Part shown: positions 1-24,894 of the stretch, in pieces
How positions within the stretch are numbered: position 1 is the first letter of the stretch
How the letters are laid out: every line of letters begins with the position of its first letter
IMG/VR virus record: IMGVR_UViG_3300017917_001775
Span: 1 to 24,978 of that record
DNA: 24,978 nt
Source of the DNA: a virus
Direction: 5' to 3' (one strand)
Position numbers and translations under genes: made by a program
The notes under the pieces: generated by a model
The model's input: the letters and a program-made list of their open reading frames with translations, nothing else
Database searches by the model: none
What the model was told of the DNA's origin: nothing

Positions 1-1859
1 CCCGCGATGTTCTCATAGGCTTTTTTGCCGTCATAAGGCCTCGTATAGACCATCACCACGTTTGGGTATCCCACGATTTTTCCAGTCTTGGGATGTCGAA
101 GAATCAGGGGCTTATAGGGCTCAGAAGTCTTAGGGTTCTTTGGATCAACATTAATCGGGGGTACGGTAGCAGCATCCCCCATTTCCAAAGAAAATGCCCG
201 ATCCCGAAGTTGACGAATTGTCAATGGGCCAGCAGGCTTTCCACTAGAAGGGGTCTTTTTTGAAGGCGACTTTCCTTTTTTCCCTTGAGTCGAAACTTGT
301 CCCGTTCCCGAATATGCAGCAGATCCTTGAGTTTTCAGCGTCGAGATACCCTGAATAGCTACGAACTTCTGACGGCGAGCCGTAAGGGTAAGAGTTGTAC
401 TGGCTCGACCACCAAAAGCAATGTTATGCGAGATCCCCTTAACGTACCATACTTGATCTTTCGGAGCTATGTAGACAGGAAACCCTAAACGAAGCTCTGG
501 GCGGATTGGGATATTGACCGTACCCTGATGCCTCCTGGAGTTTAGCCGATCCAAAATGTCCATCCCATGATAGAACATCCTCACGAGATCCCCCATAAAC
601 TCTGAGTTATAGGTATGAGGTCTCCAACCGTACTGACGAAGAAGATGGTAATCTGTCACGCTTGTAAAAGGAGTAATCTCCGGACCAAACCCATAGTCCA
701 CGTTCCCACCGAAAGAACCCTGAATAGTCAATTGAGTGACAACCTCAGCCTCGGACTCAGAAAAATCCCAATCGATGATATCGATATCTTGAATCCAAGA
801 AACGGGCTTATTGCTGAGGATATCAAGGTTGTAGAAAGGTGGCTTAAAAACGATATCTCCAGTCACATCCATGTAAAATTCGAATCCAATAGCCTCCTTA
901 CAAGCATTGGCGATCTCAAGTTTAGTCTGGTACTCAGATTGCCAAAAGTTCACCTCACCAGCCTGAGAAAACTGAGTCCGAAAAGCTGTTACATCAGGGT
1001 CCGTAGGGTCAAAGGCTAACTGAGCGGCCTGAGGTCCCCCATTAGCATTACGAACAGCATTTGCGATATGCGAGACTCCCTTAGTGGGGGTAAACTTTCC
1101 CTGTTCATACCCGTGAGCAATTGAATCCCCTCGAACAGCGATCCCATTCACCCCATATAACATGAGGTTTGATCGAATCCTAGAGAATCGACTCGACCAG
1201 TACCGCATTATATCTCCAAGGGCTTCCTTGAAGGTTGCCTTCTGACCTTCTTCTTTGTAGAGACTTACCAAAGACCCCGTACCCAAGATCACATCGCCAA
1301 AACTCATCTGAGCAAGGGTAAAGATCAGGTCATATGGGTTTGTGCCATAAAGAACGTTACCAAAAATCGATCTCCCCATCGCAGGGGTTGGGCCTGTGAA
1401 GGAGGGGTTGACGTTCATACGACAAATTTCCCACCACTTCAGGATGTCCGCACAACTGATGCTGATAGTATGCTCTCCTCCTGAATAAGAATCCCCAACC
1501 TCAGTGATAAGACCCCAGAAGATTGGATAATACTGAGGCAACCCCTCAAGAAGGTAGAAACCCTTAGCATAGATTTCAACCTCCATCATTGGAGTCAGAA
1601 CAGGGACCCCATCCACGTAAAAGTCATCTATGGAGTGACGCGGAATGCTCAAGTTGATAGTCGCCGAGCCTGGGACACTATCCACATCGAGATTAGTCTG
1701 AATTTGAGTGACATATCGGTTGAAGTCAAAGCGACGCTTACACATCGAGCACCCGATGATGTCCACCTCTCCATTGATGTAAACAATAGCATCAGGGGCC
1801 ATGACCACTGTAGGTCGCGCATTAGGGGTCCAAGTGCCCTGAAAGGGTCCTCGTGCCAT
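1..1859 (-). CDS. Baseplate hub-like protein (C-terminus beyond the window)
   Basis: I translated this frame by hand from the ATG at 1859 and found no stop down to base 1, giving at least 619 residues; the gene continues past the left edge. The start shares bases with the preceding stop (TAATG), so translation is probably coupled. Residues about 50-130 form a beta-rich segment (VPGSATINLSIPR, then a stretch on tail geometry-type residues). Around 465-495 comes YVKGISHNIAFGGRASTTLT, resembling the closing strand pattern of late-control protein D / gp27 / VgrG-type hub domains, where a 'V..V.H......TTL.L' pattern precedes an R-rich end. A lysine/serine-rich linker near 520-540 separates this from a further domain cut by the window edge. 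By family and position it would form the central hub at the tube tip. Hub identity is inference from fold pattern and synteny; a different baseplate protein is possible. Confidence 0.7.
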   Translation of the reverse strand, partial: MARGPFQGTWTPNARPTVVMAPDAIVYINGEVDIIGCSMCKRRFDFNRYVTQIQTNLDVDSVPGSATINLSIPRHSIDDFYVDGVPVLTPMMEVEIYAKGFYLLEGLPQYYPIFWGLITEVGDSYSGGEHTISISCADILKWWEICRMNVNPSFTGPTPAMGRSIFGNVLYGTNPYDLIFTLAQMSFGDVILGTGSLVSLYKEEGQKATFKEALGDIMRYWSSRFSRIRSNLMLYGVNGIAVRGDSIAHGYEQGKFTPTKGVSHIANAVRNANGGPQAAQLAFDPTDPDVTAFRTQFSQAGEVNFWQSEYQTKLEIANACKEAIGFEFYMDVTGDIVFKPPFYNLDILSNKPVSWIQDIDIIDWDFSESEAEVVTQLTIQGSFGGNVDYGFGPEITPFTSVTDYHLLRQYGWRPHTYNSEFMGDLVRMFYHGMDILDRLNSRRHQGTVNIPIRPELRLGFPVYIAPKDQVWYVKGISHNIAFGGRASTTLTLTARRQKFVAIQGISTLKTQGSAAYSGTGQVSTQGKKGKSPSKKTPSSGKPAGPLTIRQLRDRAFSLEMGDAATVPPINVDPKNPKTSEPYKPLILRHPKTGKIVGYPNVVMVYTRPYDGKKAYENIA

Positions 1860-11756: not shown

Positions 11757-13022
11757 TCAGGCGGCGAAATGAGAGTGAACCTTATCTGCCAATTGTGCTA
11801 GCTTTGCGAATTCTGAACAAATAGAAGGATCGGTGAGGTCAGCTGCCTCAATCAGAGAAGAAAGCTTAATAGAGAGTGTATTCAGGTCCTTTTTGGCAAC
11901 CTGAGTTCCAGGACGCTCACTGGCCTCAACTACCCTAAGGGCACACTCAACCTTCGCCATAACCGAATGTGCAAGAGCTTCGTTGATTGTCAGAGAGGAA
12001 AGTCGAAGAGAGGCTTCCTTGTCTTGCCCTTCTTGATCTTGCTCACCCTTCTCTTGCTCGCCCTGGTCTTGGGCCTGCTTTTCTTGAACCTGATCTTGCT
12101 GACTCTGGCTTTGATCAGAAGCAATCTTCAGGTGATCATACTCACCCTCTTCTATCCGCTTCTTTTCGCTATTGGCGATGTCCTTCGCTAACCCCTCCCG
12201 GAGCTGCTTAGAAAACATGTCCTTAACATCTCCACCAAACTCACGAACATACATCTTTGCACCTTCGTCAACCCAATAAAGCCAAAGCTTTGAGGCCGAA
12301 GAAGGGTCATACTTTCCGTCTTTGACTTTTCGAAGAATGCTCTTGAGGATATCCTGCTTTTGCCTATTAAGCTTGGACTCATTCTCCATGTAGATCCCAA
12401 GCTCCTTCTTCGCATCCTCATCAACGGCCGCTGTTTTTCCAGTCACCGTCTCGCTAAGACTTGCCGCAAGAGCACGTAGAGCCTCTACCTCTTCACGCGA
12501 CGCAAACCCAGTCTTACCAATAGCCTCTAAGCTAGCTTCAATCGAAGCTAGCTTAGAAGTAAGACCTTCTTCAGGCAAGGTAACTAGACGGCACAGGGAA
12601 GCCGTCAATTGTCTTAGACGGGCAGTCTTTTGCTCGTCCTGCTGCCCTTGCTCAGCCTCTTGCTGGAGTGCAGCAACGTGACTTTCAATTTCATCCATGT
12701 GGGTATAGATTGCCTGGACAGGGTTCATTCTGGCGCCTCGAAATTGTTGACGAGAAACAGCCGGGATAAACGGATCACCATGCCCGGCCCATCGTGCTCG
12801 GCGAGGCTGTAACAGCCCCTCCAGAGCTTGTAAGTCTACTCTGAGTGTTGCTGAGCCCTTATTCAGGAAAGCGTCAAGGGCCTTCCGACATTCAACCACA
12901 CTAGAAACCAGATCAGTTACCAGCCTCAGAACCGAAACCGACCCTAGATTGAGCTGACGCCCATCGGGAAGGTCCACATAATTCCGGAATCCATCGGTCG
13001 AAACTGTAATGAGAGTAGCCAT
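11757..13022 (-). CDS. Charged protein of unknown function with Gln/Asp/Glu-rich stretch
   Basis: 421 residues, not recognised. The N-terminus (1-100) looks folded, with a strand-like start (VSTDGFRNYVDLPDGRQLNL) and HGDPFIPAVSRQQFRGARMN near 81-100. Residues 105-200 are helical and Gln/Glu/Ala rich. Residues about 232-300 form another compact-looking segment (KYDPSSASKLWLYWVDEG and following). Residues 303-336 are almost only Gln, Asp, Glu, Lys and Gly, and the last 80 residues are helical. AGGAG sits directly against the ATG with no spacer, and a hairpin covers the start (see 13021-13039); an in-frame TAG two codons upstream rules out a longer N-terminus. It lies 16 bases before the tube gene, so a virion or assembly role is possible but unproven. 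Confidence 0.75.
   Translation of the reverse strand: MATLITVSTDGFRNYVDLPDGRQLNLGSVSVLRLVTDLVSSVVECRKALDAFLNKGSATLRVDLQALEGLLQPRRARWAGHGDPFIPAVSRQQFRGARMNPVQAIYTHMDEIESHVAALQQEAEQGQQDEQKTARLRQLTASLCRLVTLPEEGLTSKLASIEASLEAIGKTGFASREEVEALRALAASLSETVTGKTAAVDEDAKKELGIYMENESKLNRQKQDILKSILRKVKDGKYDPSSASKLWLYWVDEGAKMYVREFGGDVKDMFSKQLREGLAKDIANSEKKRIEEGEYDHLKIASDQSQSQQDQVQEKQAQDQGEQEKGEQDQEGQDKEASLRLSSLTINEALAHSVMAKVECALRVVEASERPGTQVAKKDLNTLSIKLSSLIEAADLTDPSICSEFAKLAQLADKVHSHFAA
12526..12557. repeat. Perfect 14-bp inverted repeat inside the 421-residue gene
   Basis: TCTAAGCTAGCTTC (12526-12539) and its exact reverse complement (12544-12557) are separated by the four bases AATC. In the minus-strand mRNA this would be a very stable stem with a tetraloop, in frame, encoding SKLASIEASLE. 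It may be a translation or mRNA-stability element or a site bound as DNA; a codon-level coincidence is possible because the peptide is itself near-repetitive. Confidence 0.8.
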
Positions 13023-14127: not shown

Positions 14128-17100
14128 CTAACGCCGATAATCGTAATTGCAGGGGCAAGTTACCCCCCCATCAGCCTTACAGCCTTCTCCTTCCTTGCAC
14201 TCACCCTCACAAGCTATACTCTCTTTGCACGCACCCTCACAGTCACACTCCCCGAGGTACTCATCGGATGCCTCTTTTTTGATATCGTATGCAAAAGCAA
14301 TTAGAGTACTGGCAAAAGCCCCAGATCCAGATCGGGCCGTCTTATCAAACTCCGCAAAGGGATCCTCCGGGCTAGATTCCAGTGCAAGCTCCTGTTTCGG
14401 GTCAGCTATAGCCAACTCCTCTTCATTTTTTCCAACAGGTTGCTCGGGACCCTTCTCCCCAACTATCGGAATGCACGCCTCTCCGATAAACCGAGAGACC
14501 GGGGCCGGTTTTCCGAGATAGTTTTTCTGAGGCGCCATTACTGTCACGGATTGCTCCGCACGAGTAATAGCAACATAAGCGAGACGACGTTCTTCGTCGA
14601 ATGCTGTTACATCACCCTCCGCCTCTTTTTCCGCAGTACGGAAGTTGGGGAAAATTCCACCAGACATACAGACATAGCAATGCTTCGCCTGAAGCCCCTT
14701 CCAACCATGAACAGTGCCAACAAGAACAGCAGGCTCTTTCCAATCTTCTTTCTTCTCGGGAGTCTCTTTTTGGGCTTTTTCGTTAGCTGCCTTCATCTTC
14801 TGAACAAAACCCAAAAGATTCCCAGGGTCCTTAAAGTTTTCAGCCATAATCATCAGTGGATTGAGTGGTGCCATAGCAGCATTACGCAGGGCCTCTGCTC
14901 CACCTACACCTTCCTCTTCGACAAGCTCATCCTCGTCCACTAACTTGATCAGGGACTCCTCAAAAGTTCCCTTAATGCCCTTGACACCAAGGATTGCTCG
15001 AATGAGAGAGGGGGAATCCATGCCACCCGAAATTCGAATGGTACGGATTACGTTTGCATACTCCATTACCCGCTTGTTAAGCCAATCAACGCTACCAAAG
15101 TATACCTGGCCCCCGCTCATAATATAGTCAAGGTAGTTCTTTCCACGAGCATTACGGGCAAGGTTCTCTGCAAATCCCTTATTTAGACCGAACCCAGGAG
15201 TCATGTGTGCATCAATGAGCGCCTCATTAATCTCGGAATCGCTCCCACCCACGATAAGGCGCATCCAAGCCGTAAGTGCCCTAACGAGAGGCTTACCAAA
15301 GTACCCACCCGAAGACTTGGTCAAGAGACGATAAGGGATTCCACGGGCCAAGAGAGCCAAGGTATATGCATCGTGCTCCGCATTGTTTCGCACAAGAATT
15401 CCAAAGTCCTTCGGGCTATCACCGGAATCAATTGCGTCCTTGATCTCCTGTGCCACCATGTTCGCGGCATCTTCATGTGTAGCAGCACTCTTGGATCGAA
15501 TTGAGCCCATACCCTTTAGTTCTACATCAGCCTCACAGACCATCGGGATTTGTCGATCACCGTTGTGGGCAATGAGCTTGTTCGCTGCATCCACAATAGC
15601 CTTCCCAGAACGGAAGTTCAAGGTCATCAACTTGGTCTGAAATCCCTCTTTCTTTGACAAGTCCACGTAATTCTTAGGCTTCGCTCCTCTGAAGGCGTAG
15701 ATGCTATTATGACTGAGGATCCCACCTCCGAAAAAGTTAGACGCCTCAGTCACATCAAGATCTAAAAATGTGCCCTCTACCTTTTCCACAGAAATGATAG
15801 CTTCATGTATCAAGTTTGACCCTTCCAGGACTGGCACTTTCATCCCAGGAAACAAAGCCGAGGCAGTAAGGAGATTCAGAGGCCCCTCAGCCGTTGAAAG
15901 GCGACGAGCAAGATTTGCCTTCGTGGCTTCTTGAAGCGCTTCAGCGAAAACGAGACCCTCTCTATAATTCCCGAACCACTTCCGGATCCTCTTTGTACCC
16001 TTTGAGGTATTAGCAACCTTGTAACTCTGAGTAACCTCATCCAAGTCATCTCCCATCCATTCCAAAGTCACCTGTGTTCCGGTAGGACTATGGGCAATCA
16101 TCTGAATGGTGCGACGGATCCTCCCATGCTTGGAGTAAGATCTTGACATCCAATGAGGAAGATTGAACGAAAGGTGCTTGCTCTGAAGGATTTTCAGGCC
16201 GTTCTCGCCAAACTCAGAAAACAAACTTGTAATCCTGCTCTGATTCAGCCCACGATGCTCACCTTCAAAACATGAAGTGGGAACCCCATATTTCAAAGAA
16301 TAAGATTCCTCAGCTAACAAGGCTTCTTCTCGGTCGTTACAGACTTCAAGAACCCAAAGCCTTTCAGCTTTCTCCAAAAAGGCTCGACCACCAAATCGAT
16401 TGAGGTAGTCTTCCTCACCTCCAGACTTGTTAGTTACTCCAACACGGAATCCCATGTCTCGACGGTACATTAGGTACACAATCATCTGATCACCCTCAAG
16501 CTGAAGGTCATCAGCCCAAATCTTGTGATTTGGAGACATAGTTAGAGTTTTTCCACTCTCCGTCGTAATCCTGTAACCCCAAGTCCAAGAGGAAGGGTTT
16601 ATGTGAACTACTTGGGGCCTAAGCTCCCCGTTTCTAAAGGATAAGACCTGATCTCCATCACGGAGAAGAGAAGCTTCTTTCGTCCCATCTGGGGTGGAAA
16701 TAAGAGTGTCACTAGAAACACATTGTTTATCGTCCCCTATAAATGCGAGCAAATCAGCTTTCTCCCCGAGGATCTGAAACATTTCAAATTGTATTTCGTT
16801 GAGATCCTGAGCCTCGTCCACCATAAGGGCTTTGAAGCGGCGCTGCTCAGCAGCACGAGCAGCCGGGTCCTCCTTGAGAATCTGAAGGGCCACTGTGAGC
16901 TGATCGGTATAGTCCATACAAGGGCCAAAGACCTTATCATTTTTCTTCAGCCACTCATAGGCCCCATACAAGGACGAAATACAATCATCTCCACGTTCAG
17001 ATCTCACCTGATCCACGGACTGCCCAGAATTCTTGAAGTTGTCCACCAAGAGGAGAGCTTGCTTCTCACTCAGAGGTTTTCCATTTTCATCAGCAACTGG

Positions 17101-18582
17101 CAAACCGATGTTAAACCATTCCCCAACAGGAGTGGTCCAATACGGACTACCACTGTCTCCTCCAGATGAAACCGAATCATAGGCAGCATCCACTACCATT
17201 CCGGTCTGACCCATAGCAGTACGAACCGCCTGAACCACCGAGGCATCCTCTTCCGCATACCGACGGCGATAATAACCCCCACCACTACGCCAGTTGTCCA
17301 AAACGGATTGCTGCTTCTCGGAAAGTGCCCAACCCCGACTAAGCTGATCGTAAAAGGACTTGAGGATCTTAGTGTCCCTCCATCCCGGAATAGATTCAAT
17401 GCGCTGCATGTTGTCTCGCGACTTGTTCAAACCCTCCTGGTAACCAGAAATGCTCAATGGCACCTGTCGCATCGCCAATTTGAATGCCATCCTAGCCTGT
17501 TTATTTTTGTTCACCGCCTGAACAAGTTGCGGACGATTCTTGATGATGATCTCACGGGCAATCGAATGCGTGGTACCGACCCGTACCCCATGGATCCCCG
17601 CTCTTTCTGTCACACGAGAGTCAAGCTCAGAAGCAGCAGCTCTAGTGAAGGAACAAGCCATAATCTGCCCAGGCTGGTAACCCTTCTCTTCAACTAAATG
17701 TGCAATAGTAGCCACAAGAGTTTGCGTTTTCCCCGAGCCAGCTCCAGCAGCAATAACCACATTCCCCATAGAACGCATCACATCTTCTTGTTCAGGGGTA
17801 AGTCCAAACTTGGCAGAAACTTTAGATTGTGCTGCATAACGACTCGCTGCTGCTGCACCAACCGTCTGGGGATCGTCTGAATCCTCTACTGCTTCATTGA
17901 GGTCAGCAGCTAAGTTGAGCTTCTTATCTTCCAATTCAGCTCGGGCAGGGGACCCCACAGGCTCAACATTAATTCTGCGGTCCGTATCTTTCAACTCCTC
18001 TGCAATCGCCTGAGCAGATTCCACTTGCGCAGATACTGCCTCAACCGTAGGAGCCGGGGCACCCAAAAGCTCAGCACTCTTCCTAACCCACTTAAACATA
18101 GACGAGAGTCCAGAGCTTGTTGGAACCACAGACAACTTCTGTACCCTCGCCTCAACATCAGGCTCCTCGCAAGCTACAGCAACCTTAGACGCATTTGCGT
18201 AGACCCTCCCTGGGAATATATCCCTCATAAGCGAGGTCCTACGTTTGACCCAAACCATGAAGTCCTCTACGAATCGGGCTTTTCTGGTGGGATCTGGCTG
18301 ATCCATGAAACGAAACTTAGACTCAAGAATGCTTGCATCTGGACGCTGAATGATCGACTCAAGGTGCTTTTTTGCCGCTTCCTCAATCGAACTTCGGTGC
18401 ATACGATAAACGGCCAAACCCTTATTAAGGTGCTCAGTATTGTCTCCAGCCAGGGTGTATGCATCGATTGCCAAAACAAGAACCATCAAGTCCAAGAGAC
18501 GGCCAGGAGAGGTTTCCTTGACCTCCTTCGGGTTCGCACCTTCAGCCGCAATGAGAAGCCTCTCGTCAATTTTCAGCGTCAT
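14128..18582 (-). CDS. UvrD/PcrA-like superfamily 1 DNA helicase with intein and Cys-rich tail
   Basis: 1484-residue precursor; ATG at 18582 with GGAG nine bases upstream. Helicase motifs are in order: motif I AAGAGSGKT (278-286), Ia ACSFTRAAASEL (309-320), II MVDEAQD (587-593), III GDDKQ (616-620) continued after the intein by SIYAFRGA (960-967), IV LNFRSG (988-993), V GTVHGWKG (1289-1296) and VI YVAITRAEQ (1336-1344). These fit an ATP-driven 3'-5' DNA helicase of the UvrD/PcrA/Rep group. Residues 621-959 are an intein; spliced protein would be 1145 residues. About 255 residues precede the helicase core and are not recognised. The end carries eight cysteines in 33 residues (1446-1478). Role: DNA repair, replication or recombination of the phage genome; a packaged virion protein is possible. 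Location within tail genes is unusual. Confidence 0.93.
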   Translation of the reverse strand: MTLKIDERLLIAAEGANPKEVKETSPGRLLDLMVLVLAIDAYTLAGDNTEHLNKGLAVYRMHRSSIEEAAKKHLESIIQRPDASILESKFRFMDQPDPTRKARFVEDFMVWVKRRTSLMRDIFPGRVYANASKVAVACEEPDVEARVQKLSVVPTSSGLSSMFKWVRKSAELLGAPAPTVEAVSAQVESAQAIAEELKDTDRRINVEPVGSPARAELEDKKLNLAADLNEAVEDSDDPQTVGAAAASRYAAQSKVSAKFGLTPEQEDVMRSMGNVVIAAGAGSGKTQTLVATIAHLVEEKGYQPGQIMACSFTRAAASELDSRVTERAGIHGVRVGTTHSIAREIIIKNRPQLVQAVNKNKQARMAFKLAMRQVPLSISGYQEGLNKSRDNMQRIESIPGWRDTKILKSFYDQLSRGWALSEKQQSVLDNWRSGGGYYRRRYAEEDASVVQAVRTAMGQTGMVVDAAYDSVSSGGDSGSPYWTTPVGEWFNIGLPVADENGKPLSEKQALLLVDNFKNSGQSVDQVRSERGDDCISSLYGAYEWLKKNDKVFGPCMDYTDQLTVALQILKEDPAARAAEQRRFKALMVDEAQDLNEIQFEMFQILGEKADLLAFIGDDKQCVSSDTLISTPDGTKEASLLRDGDQVLSFRNGELRPQVVHINPSSWTWGYRITTESGKTLTMSPNHKIWADDLQLEGDQMIVYLMYRRDMGFRVGVTNKSGGEEDYLNRFGGRAFLEKAERLWVLEVCNDREEALLAEESYSLKYGVPTSCFEGEHRGLNQSRITSLFSEFGENGLKILQSKHLSFNLPHWMSRSYSKHGRIRRTIQMIAHSPTGTQVTLEWMGDDLDEVTQSYKVANTSKGTKRIRKWFGNYREGLVFAEALQEATKANLARRLSTAEGPLNLLTASALFPGMKVPVLEGSNLIHEAIISVEKVEGTFLDLDVTEASNFFGGGILSHNSIYAFRGAKPKNYVDLSKKEGFQTKLMTLNFRSGKAIVDAANKLIAHNGDRQIPMVCEADVELKGMGSIRSKSAATHEDAANMVAQEIKDAIDSGDSPKDFGILVRNNAEHDAYTLALLARGIPYRLLTKSSGGYFGKPLVRALTAWMRLIVGGSDSEINEALIDAHMTPGFGLNKGFAENLARNARGKNYLDYIMSGGQVYFGSVDWLNKRVMEYANVIRTIRISGGMDSPSLIRAILGVKGIKGTFEESLIKLVDEDELVEEEGVGGAEALRNAAMAPLNPLMIMAENFKDPGNLLGFVQKMKAANEKAQKETPEKKEDWKEPAVLVGTVHGWKGLQAKHCYVCMSGGIFPNFRTAEKEAEGDVTAFDEERRLAYVAITRAEQSVTVMAPQKNYLGKPAPVSRFIGEACIPIVGEKGPEQPVGKNEEELAIADPKQELALESSPEDPFAEFDKTARSGSGAFASTLIAFAYDIKKEASDEYLGECDCEGACKESIACEGECKEGEGCKADGGVTCPCNYDYRR
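15706..16722 (-). mobile_element. Intein in helicase motif III with GIY-YIG-like segment
   Basis: Residues 621-959 of the helicase precursor. The N-terminus is Cys621 (CVSSDTLISTPDG, block A), block B has TMSPNHKIWA with His686, and the C-terminus is FFGGGILSHN, His958-Asn959, followed by Ser960 as the +1 nucleophile. All residues expected for class 1 splicing are present. Insertion splits GDDKQ from SIYAFRGA. The middle has no LAGLIDADG motif; instead IVYLMYRR (701-708), FRVGVTN (712-718), Arg729 or Arg733, and AEESYSLKYGVPT (757-769) resemble the strand, Y-x-G, Arg and Glu landmarks of GIY-YIG nucleases. Splicing should restore the helicase; the nuclease part could drive homing into intein-free helicase genes. 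Splicing is highly likely; the nuclease class is a tentative reading. Confidence 0.93.
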
Positions 18583-18635: not shown

Positions 18636-19688
18636 TCAGAGGTTACTTACGAACCTAGAGGCAACACGAAGAGCGATCCCGTCATCAAGGCTCGCATTTT
18701 TGACGGAACCTCGAATCGCTGTTTCAGATAGCTCAAAACTGTCTGGTATATCCCAATTCTTCCAATTAGACGAGAGATCATACTTATTGAGGTCCACTTT
18801 CCTAGCCTTGAGAAGATCAAGCACCTCAGTTACAGCGCTCTCAACCTCCTTCAAAACTCTTGAACCCTCCTTAGGGTCAAATTGGACTAAGTCGTGAACA
18901 TAGGCCCCCAAGTAATCAGAGCCCTCCCTGAAGTACCGGTCCGCCACAGCCTCAGAAATAGACACCGAGTCATCGTAATTAGGACCAAGGCCAGTCACGA
19001 TGAGACCATACACTTGCTTTGATTTCGAAAACAAGTCTCCCATCATCTCTTGAACAAGCTTCCCCTTGGTATACTGCTCCTCAAGATCCGACAGTCTAAT
19101 CTCCTGAGGGTTGGACAATCCTCGGTACTTACTAGCAATCCGGAGAGTGATTCCATCCATCTCCTTAACAAGTGCCAAGATTTTTCTCAGAGCTTTTTCA
19201 TCATCCTTAGACGTTGGACTCTTAAGGCTTTTCTCAGCTTCTTCTTGCACCAAGTCAAGGACATCTGCGAATTGATCCATAAGAAAAGAACGAAACGGCT
19301 CTTTTCCCCGGAATGCAAACGCAAACAGAGAATGACGAGACATAGCTCGAACTGCCTTCTCCGAGGCCTTCCGGATCGTAACAATATCCCCTCTTAGTTT
19401 TTCCTCCGCTCTTTCCCTGTCTTCTTCCTCCTTGGTCCGTTGCACAATGAAATCATTACGAAACTTCCCGTCCAAAACCTCTTTAGCAACATTGACCTCA
19501 ACCATCTTAAGAGGGTCCCCACCACGATCCGGATGGTTCTCCAAAACTTTACGCTTATAGGCCTTGGAAATCTCAGAAGAACTTGGAGTAGAGTTCGCGG
19601 AGAAGCCAAGTATTTTCTTTGCCTCTTCCAAAGACATGGAGAGGAAAAGCCTGGCATGAAGCTTTCGGGCTGTTCGACTAGTGTACAT
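18636..19688 (-). CDS. J-domain (DnaJ-like) co-chaperone protein
   Basis: 350 residues. A J-domain spans about residues 18-75: helix I SLEEAKKILGF, helix II ISKAYKRKVLENHPDRGGD with the key His52-Pro53-Asp54, and helix III VNVAKEVLDG. The HPD triad is what stimulates Hsp70 (DnaK) ATPase. No Gly/Phe or zinc-finger region follows, so this is a class C type J-protein; the remaining 275 residues are mainly helical and unrecognised. A related short motif occurs twice, GITLRIASKYRG (179-190) and GIALRVASRF (337-346), the latter almost at the C-terminus. Start ATG at 19688 has only a weak Shine-Dalgarno; Met18 would also keep the J-domain. A probable job is recruiting host DnaK to a phage protein, perhaps the neighbouring helicase or tail parts. 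Confidence 0.85.
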   Translation of the reverse strand: MYTSRTARKLHARLFLSMSLEEAKKILGFSANSTPSSSEISKAYKRKVLENHPDRGGDPLKMVEVNVAKEVLDGKFRNDFIVQRTKEEEDRERAEEKLRGDIVTIRKASEKAVRAMSRHSLFAFAFRGKEPFRSFLMDQFADVLDLVQEEAEKSLKSPTSKDDEKALRKILALVKEMDGITLRIASKYRGLSNPQEIRLSDLEEQYTKGKLVQEMMGDLFSKSKQVYGLIVTGLGPNYDDSVSISEAVADRYFREGSDYLGAYVHDLVQFDPKEGSRVLKEVESAVTEVLDLLKARKVDLNKYDLSSNWKNWDIPDSFELSETAIRGSVKNASLDDGIALRVASRFVSNL

Positions 19689-20084
19689 GTCACTTGCCCC
19701 ACTTTATAGAAGGATCCTAACCCAAGAATCCCTCATCTACGAGGCGACCACGAAGGTACTGTACCTCTGCATAAGGCTCATTTTCCTGAGACCCCTACAA
19801 AGCCACAGCAAGTGTAAGAGCAACTTCATGTGACTTACCGAAAGAGGGACACTGAATCGTCTTCTTCTGCCCTGCCCCGAGGCTTCTCCGCATGACTTGG
19901 CGATGGCTGCTTTTCGGTTAGCCCTCACATGCCTCAGATCGGATGCGTGCCCCAGGGTACTGCTCCCGATACCTCACTTCCTGGCGCCCTGGCTCGGATC
20001 TCTAGCTCGCCTTCCAGAGATCGGACATAGGCTCCAGCGGCGTAGCCTTGGGGCGCTTTTCTGGACGCTGCAAACTCCCTGAGT
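19689..20084. other. GC-rich stretch without a convincing gene; possible RNA or decayed gene
   Basis: About 396 bases between two genes. GC is roughly 60% from 19861 to 20070, against about half in neighbouring coding DNA. No ORF with a ribosome-binding site fills it. Hairpins on the minus strand include 19997-20003 with 20016-20022 (7 bp), AGGTAC/GTACCT around a single base near 19755, and a long-range ACCGAAAAG with CTTTCGGT pairing. In one frame a 32-codon ORF (19893 down to 19795, TAG) is followed in the same frame by a coding-looking tail to TAG at 19717. It could be a structured RNA, a broken gene or a recoded small gene; no tRNA shape was seen. Confidence 0.4.
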
Positions 20085-20324
20085 TTAAGTCGCTGCGAAC
20101 TTGATGGGGGCCATTCTTACAATTTGTACGGGAATTTCGCGAAAGGATTTGGGGACGAGCTTCGAATCGAGCTTTGAGCCACGCTTTATGTAGACGGTCA
20201 GGCTTGGCCCTGCGCCAACTGCAACAAATTGCACCTCACCAATGCCACGAGCGACAAGATCCGATCGCAACGCTTCCGCGATTTCCGACATATTTTGAAT
20301 GGAGAAGGTGACAGTTTTTTGCAT
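20085..20324 (-). CDS. Small alpha/beta protein (79 residues), unknown function
   Basis: ATG at 20324 has no Shine-Dalgarno; it lies a few bases after a TATAAT box, so a leaderless or nearly leaderless mRNA is likely. The protein starts with a strand (KTVTFSI), a helix (MSEIAEALRSDLVARG), then strand-turn-strand (VQFVAVGAGPSLTVYIKRG) and ends with PVQIVRMAPIKFA. The V-G-x-G-P-S-L-x-V-Y-(I/V)-K pattern resembles a small domain seen beside some trypsin-like proteases, but no protease is present, so I assign no function. A 6-bp inverted repeat (AAACTC/GAGTTT, 20072-20086) overlaps the stop; it lacks a T-run on the minus strand. Confidence 0.7.
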   Translation of the reverse strand: MQKTVTFSIQNMSEIAEALRSDLVARGIGEVQFVAVGAGPSLTVYIKRGSKLDSKLVPKSFREIPVQIVRMAPIKFAAT

Positions 20325-20356
20325 GGTAGTCTGAGATTATACTCAGACTACCATGC
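20321..20356 (-). promoter_or_regulatory. Perfect 15-bp inverted repeat with TATAAT loop at the 79-residue gene's start
   Basis: GCATGGTAGTCTGAG (minus strand, 20356-20342) and its exact reverse complement (20335-20321) flank TATAAT (20341-20336), a perfect sigma-70 -10 box. TTGATA lies 15 bases upstream (20362-20357) as a possible -35 with short spacing. Transcription from here would start near 20331-20327, three to seven bases before the ATG at 20324. The ATG is inside the 3' arm, so it is hidden in any transcript reading through from the sheath gene. There is no T-run after the stem, so it is not a simple terminator. A dimeric repressor site is also possible. Confidence 0.6.
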
Positions 20357-20390
20357 TATCAAGCACCTTTATTACAATGCGCTGTGCCGG

Positions 20391-23300
20391 TCAAATTCTT
20401 GCACGCAGGTTGAATGTCAAAACTAGATACAGTAGGGGGAAAATCGGTTGGTAGTATGCCTCAGCGCGAAGCACTGTTGGATCCTCTGGGTCTATTACCG
20501 CAGAGATACCAGTGAATGCGGCCACAATTTCCTGTTGAATGAGCTGATTGAAGAGGCTGGTCATTGAGACCTCAACCTCATTCGTCCGGCTTGACAGGAA
20601 CTTGGTTCCGACAAAGGCATCCAACACCGAGCGGCTGTTGATCGAAACGTAGTCGGCAATCTGCGTGACAGTCGGGAGCCTAGTGAGGACCGAGGTCATG
20701 TTGGTCGTGAGACCCTGACGGATCCGCACGATCGGGTCCAAGTCTTCCAGAATGGTCACGCCAGCCACAGCCGTCTGGTTAGCTTCTACCGGGTCCAGAA
20801 TGCGCGGGATGCGGGTAAAGCCCTGGATCTTCCTATGCGTGTATGGGGTTGCTACGTCCACTGCTGGGGAACACACAGCCCCAGAAGCAGCAGCCGCAAA
20901 GAAGGTGCCATCTACCAACGTTTCGAAAGTCTCACCTAGTTCATTGGAGAGGGTAATAACCGCCGAATCTGGGTAGAATGCAACCACACGCTGAGAGAAC
21001 AAAGACCTAGCCACCGTTTGAGCATTCGTAGGTGAAGTGCCTGACGCAAAACCAATGAAGCCCATCCGCTCTGACTGATTACGGATGTTACTCATGATCT
21101 CACAATGCTGAGTCAAAAATGAGTAAACTGATGTGTCCGTAGAGAGGGGCACTAGGAGGTCTGGTTTGATATTCCCTGGGAGTGGGGTAGCAAGGTCTGT
21201 GATCGCAGTGATAAACGATTGAGACGATGCCTGGTTTGTATTAGGCACCTTCTGCACCTGCTTGACCCCCACAAGAACAGCGCCATTGATAATCGCCAGG
21301 TAAGCAGCAAGAGTGACTCGATTTTCAGCACTAAGCTTACCGTAGTTTGCCTCAATGGTCTTAAACTGACGGTAAATCCTAGTGGAGTAGTCCTGTTTCA
21401 GGAACCGATAGGACATGAAGTAGAAGTCACCATTTTTCGGCTCCAAGCCACTCGGGTTAAAGGTCTGAACATTAGCGGTGTCGTTCACACCCACGCTAAC
21501 CGTATTAGTGACAAGGGTTTCCAAACCAGGAATGGCATAGTGTGGAACAGACGGATTCACATTGAATGTCGGGGAAACTTCCAAAGTAAAGGAACCACTT
21601 GGGGTATAGGAACCTTCTTGAGCTGGAAGAACCGTAAATCGTAGGCCGGTTCTACTATCCATATAGGTCTGACCTGGAGTTCCCATCCCACTAGAACCGT
21701 ACGCATTTGAAGAGGTAACAGTGAAGTTGTCGGTTGCGTCTTCCCCGTTATCCCCATCTGTCCCTGGAACGATTCCTGTCCCCGTCATGACGTTGAATGC
21801 AGAATTGGATCCAGTAGCAAATCCAATAGACGATGTGGAACCTAGCACTAAGGACTCAACGGTCAGGTAAACTTGGCCGTTTATTACCGAAGGATAAGCC
21901 ACTGCGCCATTCGTGTTCGCAGTCGGAGCAGTACCAGGCACACCAGGGGCCCCCCAAGAGGTTACAGCGAAGTTCACGCTCGCCATGAGACGGTCCACGA
22001 CTTCCTGAACATTGACCCTAGCCTGGCTAGCAAAGTCACCTTCAGTGAAACCAAGGGTTGCATTCGCTGAACCATTGAGGATCACAATTGAGGATTGTTC
22101 GGAGTTCAGGTTGCTCGTAATTCGAATCTTATTGAGATTGTCCAAGGTTCCGACAGTAGCAGAACCTTGAGAAGCAATGACTGTGTTAATGTCACCAGCC
22201 ACCTGAGTCGCTGTCGTTGAACTAGGATTGATCGTAGCTTGGAAATCCACACCGTTGATTCGAAGTTTCAACACATCATTCAAACCAGAGGTGATCACGA
22301 ACGGTCCTGCATTCCCACTCAGTAGTGTTGCAGGCTTATTAATAGCACCCGTAGTGCCATACGCCTCCTGGAAGGTGGTAAACCCAAGAGTGCTTTCGGC
22401 CGTTCCTTGGCGTACTCGAACATAACTCTTATGGTCAAATCCACCAGGTAACGCCCCAGGAACAGAATAACTGCGAATGACGAAGAATGTATGAGTAGTC
22501 CCAGGACCGGGAATAGCAACCGCAAGGAAATTGTTCGCTGTGCCGCTAAACTCTGTCTTGGCATCAATCGCCGTGTTGATATCGTCCACAATCTGTGCCG
22601 GAGTCCTAGTGCCAGCCGTAAGCGTGACATCCACATTCACACCATCGATGGTGATGTTGAGGGTGTCATTAGACCCTGAAGTAATAGTGATGTTTCCCCC
22701 ACCAGAAAGAGCAACCGGCTTACTAACCAGGTAGCCCAATGAGGCGGTATTGAGGTTTGTTGCTAAGGTCAAAGCACCGTTTAGGTCAGTCCTCCAGGTA
22801 GCCGACGAAGGAGTGTAGAAGGAGTATGGCTGGGGGCCCTTATTTGTGAATACCGCGTTCGTAGCGGGCGCTTGACCAAACGTAACGGTGACAGTCTCCC
22901 CAACCGGAGTTCCACCAACATGCAGAGCATCTGGCACTTGCTCGACACCTCGGGGCCACTGGACAGTTTCCACTAGCCCGCCACCCTTAGTGCCAAACCT
23001 CACATGATAAAGGTTTGTGTTAAAGAGGGAGGAAAATACCTCATACTGACCTTGCCCAATCGGACCAGGAGTCTTGCAAGTGATGATGTAGGTATCGTCT
23101 ACCAAACGACTATAGTAGAAAGTCGCGTAAACATTCCAATCTGGTGGAATCGGATCTTTCAGGGTGATTTTACGGTTAAGTCCATCAACAGCGGTAACCT
23201 TTACTGCGGGACGTCCGAGGGCATCCCGAAGAGTTCTACCCACGCGAGCAATTACCAAATCAGGACGATTTGTGACGAGATCCATACGCCCATTAGCAAC

Positions 23301-24710
23301 AGACGAGTAAGTGGTCGCACCAAGAGGTGTATTACGACCGTTTCCGGTCGTTGGAATCGCTGGGAGGACAAAGATCTGAGTACTAGTCCTCGAGGGAACA
23401 ACTGCGGTATCAATGAAAGCGGTACAAGGGACAAGATAGAGCTTGTCGTCCACCATACTTGGTACAACCTGAGATTCATCCAACGGCTCGGCACCGGGGG
23501 TCCGCAAAGTCGAAGAAATCGAGTAACTGGCTCCCCAGTGCACCACCGAAACATCCGGGGAGGGATTACTAACTACGAAATCTTGGCCTTGAATGTAGTC
23601 ACTTCGGTTCGGAGAAATACCCGCCCGAATCACGTTCGTAACAAGAGTGTTTGGTAGGTAGTCAAATGTGTCCTGCCACGTATTGGCCCAGTAGGTAATG
23701 AGTACGCTAGCACCAGGAGGAGGAGCAGAGGGCAAGGTAACAACGCCGTTGGTGCCATCGACCACAGTTGGAATAACCTGCACTCCACTGACCTTAACTA
23801 CAACCTTAGAAGGATCGGTTGTGGTTACCCCACCAGAGGTACCATCTACCACCGGGATATTGAAGACCCGAAAGTCCTGATTTCGAACTGTTTTCTGCCC
23901 ATTGGACAAGGCCAAAACACCATTTGCATTACCCGTCCCAATTTCAATAGATGTTTGGGCAGTGAATTGGAGATGACTCTTTCCGTCATTCCCAACAAAA
24001 ACTGACGTAGTAAGACCAGGAATCAAAGCCGCATCAATCTGAGTCTTCAAGCTAGAAGCTGTAGAAGAGGTACCCGGAAGAAAAGTAACTATGTACTCCA
24101 CACCACCGTCCACACGAATCTTTAGGGTATCGCTAGAGCCAGTCACAATCGAGAAAGGCTCAAACCCTGGAGTGACAATAGTTGCCGGAGTCGCTGTGAC
24201 TTGGTCAGAGACGTCATCCGTAAACGCAGTATCCCCACGATGGAAGAAGTAGGTACACTTTACTATCGAGGTTGCCAAAGGAGGCACCTGAAGAGTGACC
24301 TCACCTGTAGCACCCCTAACAGCTCCAACCGCTACCGGAACATTGTCCACTGTGACAGTGACAGATCTGACGTCATTCGTAGTGCGACCAAATCCCTGAC
24401 CGTCTACGATCGGAAAGTTCCGGACCTTAAAGCGAGTTTCTGTCCCGTCGCTCGTGCCCAAAACAGGGTTCGAAGGATTCGTGTCATTGACGATCCACCG
24501 AAGACTCACATCCTCGTTCACAATTTGCTGGTCTAGTGTGGAAGAAGAACCCCGGACCAACTCAAGATCCAGCTGTTCCAACTCCTCCTGACCAACACCA
24601 ATAACGACAGGAATGCGAAGGCCAGCCACAAGGGCGGCAACATTCGCTTCGGTCAATGTTCGCGAGTAAACGCCAGGGGGTACGTAGGTCGAAAAAGGTC
24701 CAAGAGCCAT
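20391..24710 (-). CDS. Tail sheath protein, very large with repeated inserted domains
   Basis: 1439 residues; ATG at 24710 with GAGGAGA about five bases upstream. The N-terminus (YVPPGVYSRTL, 9-19) and the C-terminal 370 residues, ending with LFNQLIQQEIVAAF and a beta hairpin, match contractile-tail sheath proteins, whose C-terminal arm links subunits and drives contraction. Typical sheaths have about 350-800 residues; the excess lies between about 90 and 1060. Two repeat families are visible. Family A: FKVRNFPIVDG (94-104) and FRVFNIPVVDG (280-290), each followed by a strand-rich 70 residues, with a weaker third near 489-541. Family B: SSDTLKIRVDGG (192-203), SNDTLNITIDGV (680-691) and LNDVLKLRINGV (810-821). 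These would decorate the outer surface of the sheath. Some may bind host surface or stabilise the tail. Confidence 0.9.
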   Translation of the reverse strand: MALGPFSTYVPPGVYSRTLTEANVAALVAGLRIPVVIGVGQEELEQLDLELVRGSSSTLDQQIVNEDVSLRWIVNDTNPSNPVLGTSDGTETRFKVRNFPIVDGQGFGRTTNDVRSVTVTVDNVPVAVGAVRGATGEVTLQVPPLATSIVKCTYFFHRGDTAFTDDVSDQVTATPATIVTPGFEPFSIVTGSSDTLKIRVDGGVEYIVTFLPGTSSTASSLKTQIDAALIPGLTTSVFVGNDGKSHLQFTAQTSIEIGTGNANGVLALSNGQKTVRNQDFRVFNIPVVDGTSGGVTTTDPSKVVVKVSGVQVIPTVVDGTNGVVTLPSAPPPGASVLITYWANTWQDTFDYLPNTLVTNVIRAGISPNRSDYIQGQDFVVSNPSPDVSVVHWGASYSISSTLRTPGAEPLDESQVVPSMVDDKLYLVPCTAFIDTAVVPSRTSTQIFVLPAIPTTGNGRNTPLGATTYSSVANGRMDLVTNRPDLVIARVGRTLRDALGRPAVKVTAVDGLNRKITLKDPIPPDWNVYATFYYSRLVDDTYIITCKTPGPIGQGQYEVFSSLFNTNLYHVRFGTKGGGLVETVQWPRGVEQVPDALHVGGTPVGETVTVTFGQAPATNAVFTNKGPQPYSFYTPSSATWRTDLNGALTLATNLNTASLGYLVSKPVALSGGGNITITSGSNDTLNITIDGVNVDVTLTAGTRTPAQIVDDINTAIDAKTEFSGTANNFLAVAIPGPGTTHTFFVIRSYSVPGALPGGFDHKSYVRVRQGTAESTLGFTTFQEAYGTTGAINKPATLLSGNAGPFVITSGLNDVLKLRINGVDFQATINPSSTTATQVAGDINTVIASQGSATVGTLDNLNKIRITSNLNSEQSSIVILNGSANATLGFTEGDFASQARVNVQEVVDRLMASVNFAVTSWGAPGVPGTAPTANTNGAVAYPSVINGQVYLTVESLVLGSTSSIGFATGSNSAFNVMTGTGIVPGTDGDNGEDATDNFTVTSSNAYGSSGMGTPGQTYMDSRTGLRFTVLPAQEGSYTPSGSFTLEVSPTFNVNPSVPHYAIPGLETLVTNTVSVGVNDTANVQTFNPSGLEPKNGDFYFMSYRFLKQDYSTRIYRQFKTIEANYGKLSAENRVTLAAYLAIINGAVLVGVKQVQKVPNTNQASSQSFITAITDLATPLPGNIKPDLLVPLSTDTSVYSFLTQHCEIMSNIRNQSERMGFIGFASGTSPTNAQTVARSLFSQRVVAFYPDSAVITLSNELGETFETLVDGTFFAAAASGAVCSPAVDVATPYTHRKIQGFTRIPRILDPVEANQTAVAGVTILEDLDPIVRIRQGLTTNMTSVLTRLPTVTQIADYVSINSRSVLDAFVGTKFLSSRTNEVEVSMTSLFNQLIQQEIVAAFTGISAVIDPEDPTVLRAEAYYQPIFPLLYLVLTFNLRARI

Positions 24711-24894
24711 CCGAGTCTCCTCAAATCAGTGCTTAGGTAATGTAATCTAATCTGATCTCCCGAAGAACTGAGCTTCGGTATTCGAATGGTCCAAAATATC
24801 GGACCATCTGAGACGCTCTGATTTGAGATGATCTACATATGGGGTCCGGCTTGAGCACCGGATGGGCCTACTCTAAACGAGTCAAAACAACACT
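24711..24894 (-). promoter_or_regulatory. Structured leader upstream of the sheath gene
   Basis: 184 bases with no gene. A 10-bp inverted repeat (24720-24729 with 24818-24827) closes a region containing two inner stems: 24760-24765 with 24773-24778 (6 bp) and 24786-24792 with 24801-24807 (7 bp, ATGGTCC/GGACCAT). The closing 3' arm overlaps three bases of the sheath Shine-Dalgarno (24716-24722). A fourth short stem lies near 24844-24861. This suggests a 5' leader that folds into a branched RNA. No clear promoter or T-run terminator was found. Confidence 0.4.

Follow-up and report, generated by a model that had tools for sequence, protein, structure and literature searches.

A perfect palindrome with promoter motifs behind a phage tail-sheath gene: a probable promoter and RNA lock from a homing-endonuclease-like gene family

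The palindrome and its surroundings

The DNA analysed, referred to here as the window, is the whole of a 24 978-base virus record, which is probably a fragment. A tail-sheath gene was identified by tblastn, with matches to an uncultured phage (LR745208, 40%) and the annotated tail sheath of Tunturiibacter phage Tunturi_5 (33%), and the C-terminal part also matched Gordonia and Mycobacterium tail sheaths. The leader of this gene (24711–24814, minus strand) and the regions upstream of the sheath starts of relatives contain reiterated units like CAGATCCA or ACCCAGAT, followed by an AGGAGA-like site; of 59 distinct regions upstream of the sheath, 22 contained CAGATCCA and 20 contained ACCCAGAT. 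At the far side of the locus, beyond the nuclease remnant listed below, lie a DnaJ-domain protein (18636–19688, minus strand) and a UvrD-type helicase (14128–18582, minus strand), inside which a match to an intein-splicing domain fell below the Pfam cut-off. The features around the 3′ end of the sheath gene are as follows:

20391–24710, minus strand: tail-sheath gene, 1439 amino acids, whose read-through RNA would enter the palindrome element
20357–20362, minus strand: −35-like hexamer TTGATA, aligned with TTGAC of relatives
20342–20356, minus strand: 5′ arm of the palindrome, GCATGGTAGTCTGAG, which doubles as promoter spacer
20336–20341, minus strand: loop, TATAAT, at a 15-bp spacing from TTGATA
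20334–20339, minus strand: likely −10 box TAATCT, 17-bp spacer, homologous by alignment to TAGCCT (L101) and TAGGCT (L127)
20321–20335, minus strand: 3′ arm, CTCAGACTACCATGC, which holds the start codon
20325–20330, minus strand: RNA 5′ end predicted from promoter spacing, ∼7 nt past the −10 box and within the 3′ arm
20085–20324, minus strand: open reading frame (ORF) of 79 amino acids, with codon use that fits coding
19801–19971, minus strand: nuclease remnant, residues about 32–86, with a stop codon (tblastn with L007, 54.7% over 53 amino acids, E = 1.3e-10)
19711–19788, minus strand: nuclease remnant, C-terminal 25 residues or so (tblastn with L060, 65% over 26 amino acids, E = 1.4e-5)

The palindrome (20321–20356) is perfect, the 15-nt arms at 20321–20335 and 20342–20356 being 100% complementary around a 6-nt loop. 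On the coding (minus) strand the order is the sheath stop (the gene ends at 20391), TTGATA, arm GCATGGTAGTCTGAG, loop, arm CTCAGACTACCATGC and the 79-amino-acid ORF. The ATG of this ORF is at 20324–20322, 66 nt past the sheath stop, and the best match to a Shine-Dalgarno sequence within 18 nt upstream was 2 of 6. A preliminary description of the locus had reported the 15-bp perfect palindrome, the TATAAT loop, the ATG in the 3′ arm and the missing Shine-Dalgarno sequence, all of which were confirmed. The span it assigned to the element (20321–20364) starts correctly; the palindrome ends at 20356 and the extension takes in TTGATA (20362–20357). Promoter motifs are present at the palindrome as it had proposed, but the loop TATAAT is probably not the −10 box, since alignment with relatives favours TAATCT.

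The palindrome is far beyond chance: the expected number of palindromes with 15-bp arms and a loop of 3–10 nt was ∼0.0002 by an independent-base estimate. It is the longest of seven perfect palindromes in the window (arms of at least 9, loop of at most 30). Another perfect palindrome in the window, with 14-bp arms and a 4-nt loop (12526–12557), lies inside a 421-amino-acid ORF. As RNA, the 36-mer folded at −27.1 kcal/mol, and its 111-nt context gave a folding z of −5.98, with 0 of 200 shuffles as good. In folding models the AUG had an unpaired probability of 0.0006 in the read-through RNA and of 0.48–0.77 in RNAs starting anywhere from 20333 to 20324. A further in-frame ATG (20291), situated 33 nt past the first, would not be covered by such a lock and counts against it in the window. 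The hairpin is followed by AAAAAA rather than the T-tract of an intrinsic terminator, and a scan of 19000–21500 against Rfam families (E up to 1) gave no match at 20321–20356.

The preliminary description had also proposed a search for the same palindrome elsewhere in the genome. The record consists of the window alone and the palindrome occurs in it once; the exact sequence gave no match in viral_contigs, and it is the architecture, not the sequence, that recurs in relatives. A consensus promoter scan missed the window site because spacers were limited to 16–18 nt and 9 of 12 matches were demanded, and the pattern TTGACA-15..18-TATAAT was found in none of 25 records. The codon use of the 79-amino-acid ORF resembles that of neighbouring genes, 2.8% of wrong-frame windows scoring as high. 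The protein had no relatives in Pfam, PHROGs, NCBIfam, viral_contigs or phages, and its low-confidence model (pLDDT 62) had no meaningful match in the PDB.

A candidate homing endonuclease family behind the sheath gene

A scan of viral_contigs yielded 78 loci that contain sheath relatives. The contents of the region 3′ of the sheath stop vary among them: some have an intrinsic terminator followed by a different gene, others a promoter-like TTGAC...TAnnnT stretch, a palindrome and a zinc-finger gene. These zinc-finger genes form a family with Ros/MucR zinc fingers (Pfam; Ros structure 2jsp) and a NUMOD3-like motif below the cut-off, which matches homing and HNH endonucleases in PHROG; L134 matched PHROG 9084, homing endonuclease, with E = 8e-9. 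The top Foldseek matches of the C-terminal domain model (pLDDT 83.6) were the Vsr endonucleases 1vsr and 1cw0, with probabilities of 1.00 and 0.99 and E-values of only 0.017 and 0.021. The nuclease domain expected of a homing endonuclease is thus represented by PHROG 9084 and by a Vsr fold, the latter at an E-value of only 0.017.

In a separate scan, all 36 full-family matches (L100–L135; 28 distinct junctions once near-duplicates were removed) lay directly behind a sheath gene. A nuclease gene or remnant was present in 42 of 69 distinct sheath junctions, the window counted, and was not detected in the other 27, among them the window's relatives L002 and L004. Such a patchy distribution at a single insertion site in closely related phages, as is expected of homing endonucleases, fits a mobile element, and the family is therefore called a candidate homing endonuclease, its activity being predicted. 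Weak nuclease matches at the sheath junctions of L011, L015 and L018 look like further remnants.

The window copy of the nuclease consists of two fragments with the middle missing. The promoter region and first codons in the window could be aligned with the promoters and gene starts of intact nucleases (L127/L014 and L101), and TGGTAGTCTGAG in the promoter region is common to the window and L127/L014. From this alignment the 79-amino-acid ORF would occupy the former nuclease start, and its first codons may be derived from the nuclease. Because degraded nuclease pieces lie downstream, the window palindrome was most likely inherited as the switch of the nuclease and now precedes a different ORF. 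The preliminary view of the element as the switch of the 79-residue gene is corrected accordingly: the element belongs to the homing-endonuclease-like family at the sheath 3′ end.

Promoters, hairpins and start codons among the junctions

The recurrence of the arrangement was assessed in 39 distinct junctions (38 and the window). Near-duplicate junctions and L136, for which no reading frame was set, were left out, as were the remnants L011, L015 and L018 from folding; the start codon was taken as the first in-frame ATG, or else GTG or TTG, and was re-set by hand in L106. A palindrome score of at least 11 was reached by 23 of the 39 junctions and by 3 of 234 coding control windows, and a score of at least 9 by 33 junctions and 14 control windows. 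Nineteen junctions had a promoter score of at least 15, compared with 2% of shuffles. The promoters are TTGAC-15..18-TAnnnT-like, with a typical spacer of 17 bp, and usually overlap the palindrome. Among the 22 junctions with a promoter score of at least 14, the RNA start predicted from motif and spacing fell beyond the 5′ arm in 21, so that RNA from these promoters would lack that arm. In 14 it was no more than 3 nt from the start codon, a position that suggests leaderless messages. Inspection of L111, L115, L135, L107 and L112 revealed a leader instead, and within or next to the 3′ arm a stretch resembling a Shine-Dalgarno sequence. In L102, L109, L123, L031 and L026 the predicted RNA start comes only after most or all of the palindrome, which counts against the lock.

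Folding of the read-through RNA hid the start codon more than all 40 shuffles of the upstream part did in 12 of the 39 junctions (chance ∼7e-11), namely the window, L079, L105, L108, L115, L118, L119, L120, L121, L122, L124 and L134. In these folds the start codon is sequestered in read-through RNA as in a T4-type lock. The other 27 junctions were not counted as locks: 26 missed 0 of 40, and L127, which reached it with an assumed start that is probably wrong, was dropped. The mean unpaired probability of the start codon was 0.29 in read-through RNA, 0.39 with the upstream part shuffled and 0.65 in RNA starting at the codon. The effect is bimodal, with many junctions showing none, and hiding against shuffles was marginal over all 39 (Wilcoxon p = 0.046).

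The intact nuclease L101 has TTGACA-17-TAGCCT and arms GTAGTTGAGGC and GCCTCAACTAC, with the ATG directly at the arm end; its promoter is homologous to that of the window, and its arms are different yet perfectly paired. L127/L014 retain the homologous promoter and have lost the arm pairing. Relatives thus bear out the preliminary description in having promoter motifs between or over the arms, a predicted RNA 5′ end at or just before the start, and a start codon buried in read-through RNA; in them compensatory changes maintain the pairing. Its proposal that the ATG is hidden in read-through RNA and free in RNA from its own promoter is partly supported, by this comparison and by folding.

Across all sequence the excess of promoter-hairpin motifs was weak (12 compared with 7 control motifs), so that the architecture is not a general one. 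Seven related records, 1.68 Mb in all, contained only 10 short-leader promoters 5–15 nt before an ORF start, four of them at nuclease-like genes; two of the 10 hid the start below all 30 shuffles, and both were sheath-junction nucleases. One of the four (L086:3394-4875, from the same record as L079) is a further zinc-finger gene with DUF7487, situated away from the sheath. Its promoter (TTGACT-16-TACGAT) overlaps a hairpin with the start in the loop, and folding did not hide its AUG, values as low or lower being reached by 28 of 30 shuffles. A 312-amino-acid ORF with a helix-turn-helix-like start (L211:8262, minus strand) stands directly behind TTGACA-17-TAGGCT, is apparently leaderless and had no similarity to the nuclease set.

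Arm sequences differ between phages while pairing persists with compensatory changes. Seven junctions share a register (the window, L105, L118, L120, L121, L124 and L134), in which the triplet two bases past the −35 core, CAT in six of the seven, pairs with the ATG. Changes on both sides occurred in 6 of 13 pairs, and 90% of cells pair, a percentage biased because the junctions were selected for pairing; the double changes are the stronger sign. Covariation was 0.513, compared with 0.227 when shuffled (0 of 500 shuffles reached 0.513) and at most 0.17 when slid. The 36 hairpins contain 27 G.U pairs and 9 A.C mismatches (p = 0.013 allowing for composition); for the 16 hairpins with the start codon within the 3′ arm the figures were 14 and 5 (p = 0.086 allowing for composition). 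Covariation and G.U excess favour a structure in coding-strand RNA, with a DNA operator as the possible alternative weighed below.

Interpretation and comparison with known systems

On balance, the palindrome is probably a combined promoter and RNA lock from a homing-endonuclease-like gene just behind the sheath, and this gene has decayed in the window. RNA reading through from the sheath gene would carry both arms, form the hairpin and bury the start codon. RNA from the TTGATA-17-TAATCT promoter would begin at about 20325–20330 and would lack the 5′ arm, leaving a leader of a few nucleotides and a free AUG for what would be leaderless translation, so that the downstream gene would be made solely from its own promoter. 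The proteins downstream would be active homing nucleases, and in the window the lock may still serve the 79-amino-acid ORF.

The palindrome might instead be a DNA operator, at which a repressor dimer, possibly of the zinc-finger nuclease, binds over the promoter much as I-TevI represses its own late promoter (documented in PMC2988022). The Ros/MucR-type fingers of the nucleases suit this explanation, as does the overlap or flanking of the −35 and −10 motifs by the palindrome even where the start codon is outside (L102, L109 and L123). Arm sequences that vary between phages while double changes keep their pairing argue against it, as do the 27:9 excess of G.U pairs over A.C mismatches, the arm length of up to 15–17 bp and the variable loops, and we consider an operator rather unlikely. 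A hairpin at the 3′ end of the sheath message (a terminator, an RNase III site or an exonuclease block), packed together with the promoter of the next gene, appears quite unlikely. Such hairpins are common at junctions without the nuclease, 9 of 27 having a strict T-tract, and two nuclease junctions (L012 and L034) have a terminator-like hairpin. However, only 2 of 42 nuclease junctions satisfy the strict criterion for a terminator, the window hairpin runs into A residues, L119 has a separate upstream hairpin besides the one that hides the start, and 16 of the 36 hairpins have the start codon inside the 3′ arm.

It is also conceivable, and we judge it unlikely, that a switch which served the nuclease is now dead in the window, the palindrome idle and the 79-amino-acid ORF fortuitous. 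The nuclease is indeed reduced to two fragments with a stop, and the small protein lacks relatives in the databases named above and gave the low-confidence model (pLDDT 62). Against this, the palindrome is still perfect over 15 pairs although little of the nuclease remains, and the codon use of the ORF is closer to neighbouring genes than that of more than 97% of wrong-frame windows.

The combined promoter and RNA lock, as preferred here, has close precedents. In T4 gene e the initiation region is masked by folding in RNAs that begin further upstream; the late promoter is part of the DNA that specifies the hairpin 5′ strand, and RNA made from it, being without this strand, is translated (PMC3014915). 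Initiation sites of gene e, soc, 49, I-TevI and the stand-alone mobE and segB are described as hidden in longer RNAs (PMC3014915 and PMC2988022). The logic of the lock, and the joining of promoter and lock in one element, are therefore already known, and the novelty that the preliminary description had attached to the latter does not hold. The burial in read-through RNA and the release by promoter-started RNA, as predicted here, are the same as in gene e. The gene e lock has the late promoter TATAAATA and a leader with a Shine-Dalgarno sequence, whereas the junctions here have TTGAC/TAnnnT motifs and mostly no leader. As the promoters are TTGAC-15..18-TAnnnT-like and TATAAATA was not found at the junctions, the element is classed as working like a T4 late-gene lock and not as one. 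The T4 read-through RNA is early, and here it comes from the tail-sheath gene, whose operon is presumably late, so that with promoters like host sigma70 sites the T4 timing would presumably be inverted. A more far-reaching proposal, which we put forward tentatively and hold to be doubtful, is a portable leaderless lock opposite to that of T4, in which a sigma70-like, presumably early promoter sits in the hairpin. A selfish nuclease gene would then be read early, and no nuclease would be translated from the strong late sheath message; in the window this switch would have survived the loss of its nuclease and come to serve a small gene of unrelated origin.

I-TevI, I-TevII, I-TevIII, segB and mobE are homing endonuclease genes inside other transcription units, hairpin-sequestered and with their own promoter, according to PMC2988022. 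The design of a gene within a unit, with hairpin and own promoter, is shared; those enzymes are described there as GIY-YIG or HNH, with Shine-Dalgarno sites, in T4-like phages, whereas the present family, which occurs next to the sheath gene in other large phages, combines a Ros/MucR finger with a Vsr-like fold. The abstract of PMC6083498 counts EDxHD among the homing endonuclease families, and the likeness of the present family to Vsr-like/EDxHD enzymes is one of fold by Foldseek, with E-values of only 0.017 and 0.021. For the hidden HNH endonuclease of ShiLan, in mycobacteriophages, leaderless translation has been proposed; it is likewise a proposed leaderless homing endonuclease, but is encoded within a methylase gene in a different frame, and no promoter or RNA lock is described in the passages on it in PMC11855218.

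Searches of an open-licence library returned no paper that combines a sheath-adjacent nuclease with a leaderless promoter-hairpin lock, and otherwise only papers on T4, ShiLan and unrelated subjects. New in comparison with the T4 locks are the mostly leaderless starts, the sigma70-like promoter, the setting of sheath gene and Vsr-like nuclease, and possibly the reversed timing. These data suggest that the hiding of a homing endonuclease from the read-through RNA of its host gene arose again in other large uncultured phages, where the nuclease class and the promoter type differ from those of T4-like phages and the starts are leaderless. The diversity of arm sequences offers natural material on which the mechanism can be tested, and in the window the lock may have been reused by a new gene.
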